Origin: an uncultured Flavobacterium sp. | GTDB taxonomy: Bacteria > Bacteroidota > Bacteroidia > Flavobacteriales > Flavobacteriaceae | Length of the DNA stretch: 64,000 bases | Assembly: GCF_946478785.1 (NCBI RefSeq) | Contig: NZ_CAMLDD010000020.1 | Location: 1-64,000 of the forward strand | Direction: 5' to 3' | Shown: positions 5,144 through 49,164 of the stretch, piece by piece | Numbering within the stretch: position 1 is the stretch's first letter | How the letters are laid out: each line of letters starts with the position of its first letter | Translations under genes and position numbers: made by a program | The notes under the pieces: generated by a model | Databases searched by the model: none | Told to the model about the DNA's origin: nothing | Seen by the model: the letters and a program-made list of their open reading frames with translations, nothing else

Positions 5144-5225
5144 GGAGCTGTTTCCTGCTATCCGCTGTATCTTTTGTGGCGAACCCCGCCACAAAAGGAT
5201 GCGCTGCTATCAGGGCTAGGGCTCC
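5144..5225 (+). repeat. 82-base palindromic dispersed element, copy A
   Basis: Long imperfect hairpin: outer arms GGAGC/GCTCC, middle GCTATCCGCTGTATCTTTT against AAAAGGATGCGCTGCTATC, inner stem GTGGCG/CGCCAC. A second element of exactly 82 bases with the same outer plan is at 45976-46057. The inner stems differ in sequence but both pair, so the structure rather than the sequence is kept. No coding function is seen. Confidence 0.8.
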
Positions 5226-45975: not shown

Positions 45976-46057
45976 GCGTTGCCTCCGGCCGGGCTATCCG
46001 CTATATCTTTTTATTTTTAAAGAAAAATAAAAAGGATATCGCTTCTATCCCTAACGC
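45976..46057 (+). repeat. 82-base palindromic dispersed element, copy B
   Basis: Outer arms GCGTT/AACGC, then GCTATCCGCTATATCTTTTT against AAAAAGGATATCGCTTCTATC, and an inner stem ATTTTT/AAAAAT. It has the same length and plan as copy A at 5144-5225, including an identical GCTATCCGCT start, but a different inner stem that still pairs. It is the left part of the repeat cluster around the GIY-YIG gene. Confidence 0.8.
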
Positions 46058-46085
46058 AATTTCATGTAAGTTAGGCCTAGTATTT

Positions 46086-46111
46086 TGTCACTTCGACGAA
46101 GGAGAAGTCAC
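46086..46111 (+). repeat. 26-base repeat R1 (TGTCACTTCGACGAAGG...)
   Basis: Begins TGTCACTTCGACGAAGGAG and ends AAGTCAC. It is identical over all 26 bases to R2 at 46485-46510. It lies 25 bases beyond the GIY-YIG stop codon and 28 bases after palindromic copy B. The CTTCGACGAAG core is itself nearly palindromic. Confidence 0.9.
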
Positions 46112-46136
46112 TGAGGGAGAGACATTCCGTATTCTT

Positions 46137-46454
46137 TTATTCAAAATGATAATTTAAAAACTCAAATTCAGAATTAAATCCTTGAATTAAAAACAGTTTC
46201 TTTTCTCTTCTCCATTTTTTTAATTCTTTTTCCCTGGCTATTGCTTCCTGTACCCAAACAAATTTTTCATAATAAATTAAGAATTCGATCCCATATTTTG
46301 AGGCAAAAGTTTTATTACCAGTTTCTAAATTATCTTTATGCTGTTGAAGTCTGATTTTTAAATTATTAGTGACTCCAATATAAAAAGTAGAACGATATTT
46401 ATTGGTTAAAATGTAAACATAATAACTATGAAAGCCTTTTTTCGGATTAAGCAT
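46137..46454 (-). CDS. Single-domain GIY-YIG endonuclease
   Basis: A 105-residue protein with only the GIY-YIG nuclease fold: SYYVYILTNKYRSTFYIGVT carries the YVY/YIG strands (about 12-27), followed by NNLKIRLQQHK with the catalytic Arg and AIAREKELKKWRREKK with the metal-binding Glu. There is no DNA-binding domain, as in the UvrC-like/YhbQ-type small group. Two identical 26-base repeats in the same orientation bracket the gene and a third inverted copy follows R2. That context suggests a nuclease acting on or spread with the repeats. A cell role in DNA repair is the alternative. Confidence 0.85.
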   Translation of the reverse strand: MLNPKKGFHSYYVYILTNKYRSTFYIGVTNNLKIRLQQHKDNLETGNKTFASKYGIEFLIYYEKFVWVQEAIAREKELKKWRREKKLFLIQGFNSEFEFLNYHFE

Positions 46455-46484
46455 AATTTAGTTTTAGTTATTGGGTCTCATTTT

Positions 46485-46510
46485 TGTCACTTCGACGAAG
46501 GAGAAGTCAC
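46485..46510 (+). repeat. 26-base repeat R2, identical to R1
   Basis: Exact copy of the 26 bases at 46086-46111, 30 bases upstream of the GIY-YIG start codon. It forms the left arm of an inverted pair with R3. Confidence 0.9.
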
Positions 46511-46553
46511 ACAAGAAACTCACATTAGCAATGTAGAAAATCTCTCTACCTCA

Positions 46554-46580
46554 GTGATTTCTCCTTTCGTCGAAATGACA
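46554..46580 (-). repeat. 27-base inverted repeat R3
   Basis: Reverse complement begins TGTCATTTCGACGAAAGGAG and ends AAATCAC. It differs from R2 by two C/T changes and one extra A, and can pair with it across a 43-base loop to give a long hairpin (46485-46580), the form of a REPIN. Confidence 0.85.
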
Positions 46581-46604
46581 ATATTGTGGATTTACTACCT
46601 GAAT

Positions 46605-49094
46605 CTAATCCAATACATTCAAAATCTTCAGTCCGAACACAACACCATTTTGCTGGATGCCGCTTTGGTAAGAGTGTACATAATCTACCCGAAACAATTT
46701 AAACTTGCCAAAACCTAAATTGTCTAACCCAACTGTAAATTCTGTGAACGGATTTCTGTCAGGTAATGCCAAAGCATGAAAGCCAATATTCATTGTGGAT
46801 TTTAAAAGATTCAAAACAGGGATTTTATTCATGATAAATCCGGTATCATTATATTCCAAATGCGTTTCAAAGTAACGGTCATTAGTGCTGTTTGAGTAAT
46901 AAGGCATTAAATTAAATACATTCAGATACCTGCTGCTCGTTCCGATATGAGTTTGGTTTCCGTTAAAGTGTTTATAATCGATAAAAGAAATGTTTTCGGC
47001 ATTAAAGAATTTACCGGCTTTTAAATTAATTCCTGTGATTCCCTTGTTTCCTAATGATAAATCGTAAAATAAGGAAGCGCTTAAACGTTCAAATTCATAT
47101 TTTTTTTCATTAGCGGCAAATGCTTTTTCAATAGCTAAAAAGATGGTTGGATATTTGTCATTGTTAATATTAAACTTTCCATCAGGTCTTGAAATGTATT
47201 TGTTTCCAAAATTAATTCTGGCATTCAAAGCGGTTTTAAATAAGTGATGGCGGTCAAATGACAGAGTTGTATAATCATCCGGGGCCAAAGGATTGTTAGA
47301 AGAATACACATCATTCTTTTTAAAGACAGAATAATCGGTAGCATTAAAAAGAGGTTTTCGTTGTTCATACGCTACTCTGGCATTCAAATTAATTCCGTTT
47401 GCGACATTTTGTGAATAATTGATTTGAGCAAATTCCAAATTATATAACTTCATGTAATTGTCTTTAAAAAATAAAGAGCTAACAGAATTGACAAATTTAG
47501 TGATGGGTGAAGCTCCATTAAACTGAGCTGTTTTTGTTCCTCATGAAAGGTTTACTTGAGCGTAATTGATATTGTTGAATTGATGAGCAAAGTTTCCGGT
47601 AGCTCTAAAACGCTCATCTGAAAAACCATAATTAAAAGTGGTGCTTACAGAAGTATTTTTCCCTTTTTCGTCATTCCATTTTCTGAATGAAAAACCCGAA
47701 TCAAAATTAAATCCCTGTACAGTATTAAAACTTAAAGAACCTAAATTCAATAAGCCTTCATATCCAAATGAATATTTCCTTGAACTGTTTTTATAATTAT
47801 AACCCATTAAAATATCCCATACTTTAAACTTATTATGTTTTGCATCTACAGAATCCAGGTATTTTTGAGATTTTCTAATAGTCAGTAAACTATCTTTTTT
47901 GGTATAATCAGTACTTTCTTCAATAGTAAGAGGAATGGGGCGGATTTCATTCCAAAAAGCATCGTCTTTTTTATTAGCATTGGCTTCAAAAGCAACAATT
48001 TCATTTCCAAAAGTTTTCTTTGCAAAGGAATCCGGAAAATTATAATTGGAATAGACATAATTAAAATTTCCGGAGAATTTAATTCCGAAAGCACCAGCGT
48101 TAAACGAAAGTGTCTGCGCATTTTTAGACCAGATTTTATCCTTGGAATTATAACTGAAGCTCTGTTTTAAAGTCATGATTTCAGTAAATTCATTTTTCAT
48201 ACGATAACCTTTAATGTCTAGATCTATAGCGTAAATAGCAAAACTATCTTCTACAATATAAATGTAACCTTCAAAAACGGGTTCTTTGTCTCGTTTTGGC
48301 GTTACCTTAATTTTATTGATTTGTTGGTTGTTATCGTCAAAAAAAGTTCCCTCAAGTTTGTATTTGTAGTAGTTGAAAGCATTATCAGCAATAGGGGAAA
48401 TGAGTTTTACATCAAAATCCAATGTATTTTCATAAAAATCATAAGTCGATAAGCTGGCTGTATTATAACTGAAACCATTATTGTTCCCGGAGATTTTCGA
48501 TGCAATGATTTTCTCTTTTAGTTTATCGGGTTTTTCAAAGGTAATTTTCGAAATAGTTTCAGATAAATATAAAATTCCGGTTCCGGTTGAATCTAAATTG
48601 GATGCCATGTCTTCGCCAAGATCAACTTTTTGCCCAAGGATTTTCTTTGGTAGATCTTTGACTTTAAACATCCCTTTCGAATAAAAGTCAGCAGTAAAAC
48701 GTGCTGTCTTTGCTGAATTTTCTTTTTTGTTTGCAATTGCGTTTTTTATAATTGCGTTAGCAGGATTGTTTTTTTTGTCAATGATAACTTCGTTCAAAGC
48801 AAAACTCTCTTCCAGCATTTTTACATCCAAAAGAACCGTTTTAGATTCTGATGAGACTGCGGCTTTTTGAGTTTTAAAACCTAAATACTGAAAGGTTATT
48901 TTGTTCTTGCCAACTTCTTTTACATTGAGCTGGTATTTTCCCTGTTCATTTGATGTTGTACTCGTATAAGTATTCTCCTCAATTACAGAAACAAACGGCA
49001 AAGGATTTCCTTTTTCATCAGTTATAGTTCCTTTGATTTGGGCAAAGTTTGAAATAGAAAAAAATAAAAAGGCAAATAAGGTATAGTTTTTCAT
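46605..49094 (-). pseudogene. DUF5686 outer-membrane protein gene with in-frame TGA
   Basis: The whole frame codes about 829 residues: signal peptide MKNYTLFAFLFFSISNFAQ, a carboxypeptidase-like regulatory domain (IKGTITDEKGNPLPFVSVIE), then the DUF5686 region and a C-terminal beta-barrel. A TGA at 47541-47543 interrupts it after FNNINYAQVNLS. The same frame continues at once as GTKTAQFNGASPITKFVNSV to a normal end (LKILNVLD). One base change, for example GGA to TGA, explains it. It is a recent nonsense mutation, a sequencing error or read-through. An ATG at 47453 could not restart a functional exported protein, since no signal peptide would be present. Confidence 0.8.
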
Positions 49095-49164
49095 GAAAGT
49101 TTTTTCTCTCACAAAAATAAAATAAGTTAAAAGCGGGGGTATTAATAATTTGTTAAATAACAGA

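Follow-up and report, generated by a model that had tools for sequence, protein, structure and literature searches.

A predicted GIY-YIG nuclease gene of Flavobacterium lies among hairpin repeats whose type follows the enzyme clade

Within the GIY-YIG nuclease superfamily, free-standing homing endonucleases of the Seg type exist. Ssn, a GIY-YIG family described by the Veyrier group in 2025, is said to occur in Neisseria and other bacteria and to cut dispersed cognate repeats, the NTS repeats, as single strands; the enzymes are reportedly single-domain proteins with many homologs, each with its own sequence. RAYT/REPIN systems combine a single gene for a transposase of the HUH tyrosine type with flanking GTAG-tagged hairpin repeats, the type of which follows the enzyme, and with dispersed inverted pairs of these repeats. 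The CGTC REPs have stems of 8-9 bp and loops of 4-5 bases and, according to the available part of the survey by Di Nocera et al. (2013, PMC3733652), apparently have no dedicated transposase; the same part mentions loss of the RAYT unit after spread for E. coli (PMC3733652).

In this study, a predicted GIY-YIG nuclease gene embedded in hairpin repeats is described and compared with these systems. It lies in the window, which is the whole stretch of 64,000 nucleotides from an uncultured Flavobacterium sp. that was analyzed. The features of the locus are the following:

46137..46454, minus strand: predicted GIY-YIG nuclease gene, 105 aa, single domain, REK signature
46083..46111, plus strand: hairpin repeat R1, 3' of the gene, core from 46087, tail AC
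46482..46510, plus strand: R2, exact second copy, 5' of the gene, core from 46486
46554..46579, minus strand: R3, inverted copy and partner of R2, ATTTC/GAAAT stem, CGAAAG loop
46486..46579, no strand assigned: R2-R3 inverted pair, a REPIN-like unit with the GTC tags outward
46082..46126, plus strand: R1 extended on its 3' side; forms an inverted repeat with 46539-46584 on the R3 side
45983..46062, minus strand: Flavo-1 RNA (82-base palindrome), outside the system

The core of R1 reads GTC-ACTTC-GA-CGAAG-GA-GAAGT-C. R3 is an imperfect copy of R1 and R2, with an ATTTC/GAAAT stem in place of ACTTC/GAAGT and one additional base in the loop. The initial annotation of this DNA had described the gene as bracketed by exact direct repeats of 26 bases, and R2 and R3 as a 96-base hairpin. 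The bracketing by exact copies on the plus strand was borne out, with the correction that the identity extends over 29 bases, and R2 and R3 do form an inverted pair, but one of 94 nt. In addition, R1 and R3 are inverted repeats around the gene, with arms of some 45 nt, matched over two adjoining segments. As single-stranded DNA, R2-R3 (46482-46586) folds strongly, at -21.4 kcal/mol (z = -5.7), a value equaled by none of 200 shuffles. The folds of single copies are weak; with standard parameters, R1 and R2 give -1.9 kcal/mol (z 0.31), which is not above shuffles. The repeat motif (up to 2 mismatches) occurs three times in the 64-kb window, to which the count was confined, and all three occurrences are at the GIY-YIG locus; none was found in 100 shuffles. 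The DUF5686 gene beside the nuclease (46605-49112, minus strand) is split into two ORFs, both of which match one single ORF in the related loci L002, L003 and L004, so that the gene is either broken or carries a sequence error.

The 82-base palindrome, which had been placed in the same repeat cluster, is real but was rejected as a part of the system, because it matches the Rfam family Flavo-1 (RF01705; 59.9 bits with a cut-off of 42), is absent near the gene in relatives and has a likeness at the same site in relatives without the gene. The core of Flavo-1 (up to 3 mismatches) was found within 700 bp of the gene in none of 80 related loci and six times elsewhere in them, and no Flavo-1 was found at this site in the alignment of L002-L004. 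L306 and L307, the relatives without the gene, carry a Flavo-1-like element at the same site, which scores 33.7 and 29.7 bits, respectively, below the cut-off of 42. Another three-mismatch match to the Flavo-1 core is present in the window at 5155-5175.

The assignment of the window ORF to the GIY-YIG nuclease superfamily, as a predicted nuclease, is based on a match to PF01541 (57 bits, cut-off 22.6; E = 2.5e-15), which confirms the single-domain gene of 105 residues as first annotated; no second domain was found. Invariant in 26 aligned sequences are Y14, Y25, G27, R35, E75 and N94, and also H39; we take Y14, Y25, R35, E75 and N94 to be the residues usually regarded as catalytic in GIY-YIG enzymes. 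The structure model (pLDDT 89.8) has the UPF0213 protein BH0048 as its best fold match (E 5.9e-4), followed by weaker matches to Slx1, UvrC and I-TevI domains, and the UPF0213 structures 1ZG2 and 1YWL are the nearest solved structures by sequence, the former also by fold. Searches of NCBIfam and PADLOC gave weak matches only, with a score of 25.2 bits for TIGR01453 (cut-off 56.05).

UPF0213 proteins are of similar size and the closest in structure, but the window protein falls outside the UPF0213-like class, which has an FEK signature and no repeats, as it has REK and repeats. This split was observed over 210 loci: an element is present in 174 of the 181 REK loci, in one of the eight FEK loci and in 12 of the remaining 21, where the letters are unclear or others. 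The distant UPF0213-like FEK relatives thus mostly lack repeats alongside. With GIY-YIG homing endonucleases such as I-TevI, the window gene shares the nuclease fold and the linkage to a presumed target; unlike them, it has no detected second domain and many repeats rather than one unique site. A phage origin was also considered and rejected: no match at E <= 1e-5 was found among 50,697 phage records, and the nuclease therefore does not resemble a phage homing gene.

Short GIY-YIG ORFs of about 79-93 aa were also observed at tRNA genes, in six places (L182; L183 with L185 and L187; L184; L186; L220; L222 with L226). In five of the six, a tRNA gene (Arg, Pro, Arg, Arg and Met) lies about 55-110 bases from the short gene or array, and at L184, no tRNA gene was seen nearby. 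Genome G037 carries five tandem short copies, one per 350 bp, behind a tRNA-Pro gene, with the 3' half of the tRNA after each copy where this was read. These ORFs have the appearance of a counterpart, at tRNA genes, to the family that is linked to repeats.

The generality of the arrangement was studied using the motif GTC-s5-GA-loop-GA-s5'-C, which fixes the GTC, the two GA steps and the C and leaves the stem free. The best 80 loci of 396 relatives were taken from genome contigs with flanks of up to 10 kb on each side. Of these loci, 78 have an element no more than 600 bp from the gene and 64 have one on both sides, and variant elements are visible by eye in the two that are motif-negative (L052 and L060). 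The density of elements is 2.91 per kb near the gene vs 0.064 per kb in the rest of the 80 loci, and the motif was not found in 131.6 kb of shuffled sequence. Gaps beside the gene carry an element in 115 of 132 cases, compared with 23 of 548 other inter-ORF gaps in the 80 loci (Fisher p = 7e-87; loci of related species are not independent, and p-values overstate the enrichment).

Addition of loci from whole genomes resulted in 156 non-duplicate loci including the window, after removal from 188 of four distant loci without a tblastn hit (L157, L158, L162 and L181, in which no strict element was found) and of 28 of the remaining 184 as duplicates with the same gene and 150-bp flanks. Of the 142 loci with more than 60 bits against the window protein, 138 carry an element at a distance of up to 400 bp (106 on both sides). 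The initial annotation would have been refuted by orthologs lying as often as not in repeat-free contexts, which was not the case; at 60 bits or less, one of 14 loci has an element, which has a TTAAC stem and looks spurious. A match to the protein at E <= 1e-10 is present in 163 of 395 genomes in the phylum. Another 57 loci from Bacteroidota and from plasmids gave an element in 51 and on both sides in 39; three of the 57 repeat earlier loci, without which the count is 48 of 54, and L195 was dropped. The motif gave no hit in four of the 142 loci and in six of the 57; L052, L171, L248 and L249 show variants on inspection by eye, and the remaining six are L146, L154, L192, L206, L228 and L245. 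The nearest element lies a median of 45 bases from the start (121 loci) and 29 from the stop (123 loci), in both orientations (upstream 38 plus and 35 minus, downstream 29 plus and 40 minus). The closer relatives are nearly always embedded in repeats of the same plan, with examples in three phyla.

The repeats are short hairpins with covarying stems. When elements were collected without demanding pairing, a perfect Watson-Crick stem of 5 bp was present in 270 of 347 near the gene and in 33 of 99 far from it. The perfect stems near the gene are of 11 kinds (ATTTC, ACTTC, ATCCT, ATCCC, ATTCC, ACTCC, ATGTC, ACCCT, ATCTC, ATTTT and ACCTC), of which ATTTC makes up 205 of the 270. Among 349 near elements found with pairing, closed GNA/GNNA loops are present in 86 of 88 five-base loops, 56 of 74 six-base loops and 53 of 91 seven-base loops, and 96 loops are longer. 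The loop-closing pair alternates between C-G (CGAAG) and G-C (GGAAC). GNA loops and tandem G.A pairs give unusually stable DNA hairpins. From the sequences, a loop that varies in length between stems that stay paired would suit a folded strand more than a palindromic duplex, in which the spacing would be fixed; a dimer that reads the palindrome as a duplex is also possible and would likewise give covarying stems.

For comparisons within one genome, the limits were set by us at 95 bits or more for clade I and 65-95 bits for clade II; the 60-bit limit used above was likewise our choice. Loci of both clades were available from 10 genomes. None of the 10 clade I genes has xTTGC stems at its side, and nine of the 10 clade II genes have them, the exception being G077, in which clade II lacks an xTTGC flank. 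On a protein tree of 186 tips, built from 210 proteins less six that fell outside 85-160 aa and 18 that had no label, the stem labels require 49 parsimony changes, compared with at least 91 in 200 shuffles, a low count to which shared ancestry contributes. The repeat type follows the enzyme clade, even within one genome.

The number of repeats mostly follows the presence of the clade as well. ATTTC-type copies, including those beside the gene, were compared in 121 genomes of the genus, with the clade assigned by the best E-value per genome; the medians are 21 with clade I (n=51), 2 with clade II only (n=20) and 0 with no hit (n=50). The higher copy number with the gene that had been anticipated thus appears in the medians, 21 vs 0, with exceptions both ways. 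Clade I genomes are larger (median 4.7 vs 3.05 Mb), and within genomes of 2.5-4.5 Mb, the ATTTC-type medians are 6.5 vs 1 (p = 0.001). On one side, seven of 51 clade I genomes have 0-2 copies, some, not all, of which were seen with another stem type. On the other, six of 50 no-hit genomes have at least 10 copies (range 10-147). G115, of 6.2 Mb, holds 147 copies of the ATTTC type and 57 of the ATTGC type, and the only relatives of the gene found in it are distant, so the gene is not needed to keep the repeats; the other repeat-rich no-hit genomes are G111 (27 ATTTC-type copies), G059 (20), G044 (19), G072 (17) and G090 (10). Such genomes can be read either as gene loss after spread or as independence from the gene.

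ATTGC-type copies, again with those beside the gene included, have a median of 12 in 31 clade II carriers vs 1 in 90 others; the carriers were hand-picked, and G038, G039 and G042, which are clade II only in the ATTTC-type comparison, are counted here among the 90. Among clade II genomes, those whose gene has xTTGC flanks (n=15) reach a median of 20, six with flanks of another type or with none hold 0-6, and 17 of the 90 genomes not scored as carriers have at least 10 copies. The ATGCT type (GNYA loop) is a weak support for clade specificity: G028, G047 and G126, the three genomes in which the gene has ATGCT flanks with this loop, have the highest numbers of the 121 genomes (6, 11 and 6), of which 4, 6 and 2 are at the gene itself and 2, 5 and 4 away from it. 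Elsewhere, G079, which has no clade I hit, has three copies and G014, G082 and G038 have two each; genomes with ATGCT flanks of another loop type have two (G014) or none (G029, G119 and G128).

Some related species share gene sites, and most pairs of loci differ. Among 81 loci (3240 pairs), 121 pairs share a neighbor, 44 of them on both sides, and 3119 share none. The window locus, L002, L003 and L004 share a site, and all have the gene and the repeats. In the window, this site lies between a cation-efflux gene and the DUF5686 gene. The 30 best matches among 90 genomes with the transporter included 28 with both neighbors visible; one of the 28 is filled with a GIY-YIG gene (the same place as L003) and 27 are without it, and of the latter, 25 have no element and two, L306 and L307, have elements without the gene. 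In Azospirillum lipoferum 4B (L253, 1489-1782), sufB and sufC are separated by the gene together with two REP pairs; three relatives that were aligned, as well as a more distant fourth, have nothing but a shorter spacer at this place. Of three other REP pairs in 400 kb of this plasmid, one is lacking as a unit in three relatives and another in two, and for the third site, no close relative was found. No insertion boundaries or target duplications were resolved at the Azospirillum and window sites, where the alignments are too diverged. At the two gene sites compared, the gene and the repeats are mostly present or absent together. The repeat-only alleles may be what recombination between R1 and R2 left when it deleted the gene or, conversely, may precede a homing event into the pair; the data are compatible with either.

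Outside the Bacteroidota, six loci were reached, through plasmid records only (seven of 10 matching records fetched). The REPs on either side of the gene are CGTC-tagged in Rhizobium, Shinella and Azospirillum (CGTCATCC...GGATCCA) and TGTC-tagged in Planktothrix; two Sinorhizobium records have palindromes with a CCTC tag around it, which the motif missed and which are plain by eye. In Planktothrix (L251), the nuclease and its repeats lie between an MmeI-type restriction gene and the DISARM gene drmA. As in the CGTC REPs in the available part of their survey (PMC3733652), the repeats have a CGTC or TGTC tag (some CCTC) and complementary AT at the outer end of the stem, form inverted dimers and occur in Bacteroidetes and alphaproteobacteria. 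The tag in the window is TGTC and the R3 stem starts with AT, with R1 and R2 stems starting with AC, paired with GT. Compared with the CGTC plan of stem, loop and CCA tail, the window elements have 5 bp, the tandem G.A, 1 bp, a GAA/GAAA loop and a CAC tail; those of Azospirillum, Rhizobium and Shinella have longer stems and ATCCA. Flavobacterium elements, with 5 bp, tandem G.A, mostly 1-2 bp and a loop, thus differ from the 8-9 bp stems given in that part of the survey, and the linked GIY-YIG gene is a further difference from the CGTC REPs as surveyed there (PMC3733652). Pairs with the tags outward are the commonest of neighboring pairs in the 80 loci, with no majority (96 of 198; median start-to-start distance 76). 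CGTC REPs are described as mostly head-to-head dimers that are dispersed in the genome; the repeats studied here are likewise dispersed, with up to 183 copies per genome.

The explanation that we consider probable is that the hairpin repeats, both those beside the gene and those scattered in the genomes of relatives, are the substrate of the predicted nuclease, which would recognize them and cut them as folded single strands. The link between the enzyme and the repeats is firm, recognition is very likely, and cutting of single strands, for which the analogy with Ssn is used, is likely. The single-strand step is proposed from features of the hairpins, namely stems of 5 bp with tandem G.A, loops of the GNA/GNNA kind and a loop length that varies, and from what is reported for Ssn. 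The enzyme would bind its cognate hairpin and cut it as a folded single strand, and cuts repaired from another copy would spread the repeats and occasionally the gene; such mobility of the repeats is possible. Like the enzymes reported as Ssn, the window protein is a single-domain GIY-YIG protein; repeats lie near its gene and, in relatives, in many copies in the genome, and these would be its cognate sequences. The window gene and its relatives are from genera other than Neisseria. Because of the Ssn work, the kind, a GIY-YIG nuclease with dispersed cognate repeats, is probably already known. The system works like RAYT/REPIN, with a single gene flanked by hairpin repeats of a type that follows the enzyme and with dispersed inverted pairs. 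It is not a member, and RAYT membership was rejected, as the enzyme is a GIY-YIG protein in which no HUH domain was found, not an HUH tyrosine transposase, and the tag is of the GTC type (TGTC), not GTAG. 'REPIN-like, with a nuclease of another family', as the initial annotation put it, is a good description, with the repeat type tracking the enzyme clade.

Several other explanations were weighed. Chance clustering of intergenic repeats beside a non-essential gene could account for a gene and repeats that are both intergenic and common to related species; it is hardly credible, as it is contradicted by the enrichment relative to other gaps and to distant GIY-YIG relatives and by genomes in which the genes of two clades are flanked by repeats of different types. 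The repeats could also be terminators, attenuators or mRNA stabilizers with a merely regulatory link to the nuclease, as the short median distances to start and stop and the strong fold of R2-R3 would allow. Repeats that reach 183 per genome, are rare in other gaps (23 of 548) and, unlike terminators, face both ways make this improbable.

The roles of policing and of mobility weigh more. A nuclease that moves nothing may police single-stranded DNA (uptake, transformation, phage or the lagging strand), with the repeats deciding at which places recombination or import would be cut and at which spared; what is reported for Ssn in Neisseria, the hairpin design of the repeats and the absence of matches at E <= 1e-5 in the 50,697 phage records agree with this, but policing alone leaves a clade's own repeat type beside the gene unexplained, and we lean slightly against it as the full account. 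Somewhat more doubtful is a true mobility enzyme that cuts the repeat pair, with repair copying pairs or the unit of gene and repeats to new sites, a minimal mobile element analogous to RAYT/REPIN or a homing element. Repeat numbers that follow the clade in most genomes, the presence of one to six gene matches in each of 16 genomes, including fragments and copies with stops, the 3119 of 3240 locus pairs without a common neighboring gene, the filled, repeat-only (L306 and L307) and empty alleles of the window site and the absence of the Azospirillum gene unit from relatives are all consistent with mobility. Related species, however, often share a site (44 of 3240 pairs on both sides), so movement would be rare; the repeat-only alleles equally fit gene loss by R1-R2 recombination, and there are repeat-rich genomes without the gene and no resolved boundary or target duplication.

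A wider proposal, which we put forward tentatively and with more doubt than confidence, is that a GIY-YIG family provides the dedicated enzyme so far missing for the CGTC REP superfamily as a whole. Each clade would cut its own DNA hairpin and thereby spread the repeats and, rarely, itself, so that the REPIN mode of life would have arisen a second time and independently, in Bacteroidota, Alphaproteobacteria and Cyanobacteria. Among the publications listed in literature searches, none linked GIY-YIG enzymes to REPs. GTAG REPs have a known partner enzyme, and the 2013 survey of CGTC REPs, in its available part, left the enzyme question open (PMC3733652). Recognition and cutting by the nuclease described here, if true, would give a known but ownerless repeat family its enzyme, and the many enzyme-repeat pairs with different stems, including two pairs in one genome, make the enzyme question of the CGTC REPs testable. 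Should these enzymes prove to be sequence-specific cutters of single strands, every clade could contribute a new specificity for tools, and the repeats could be read as the sites of that activity.
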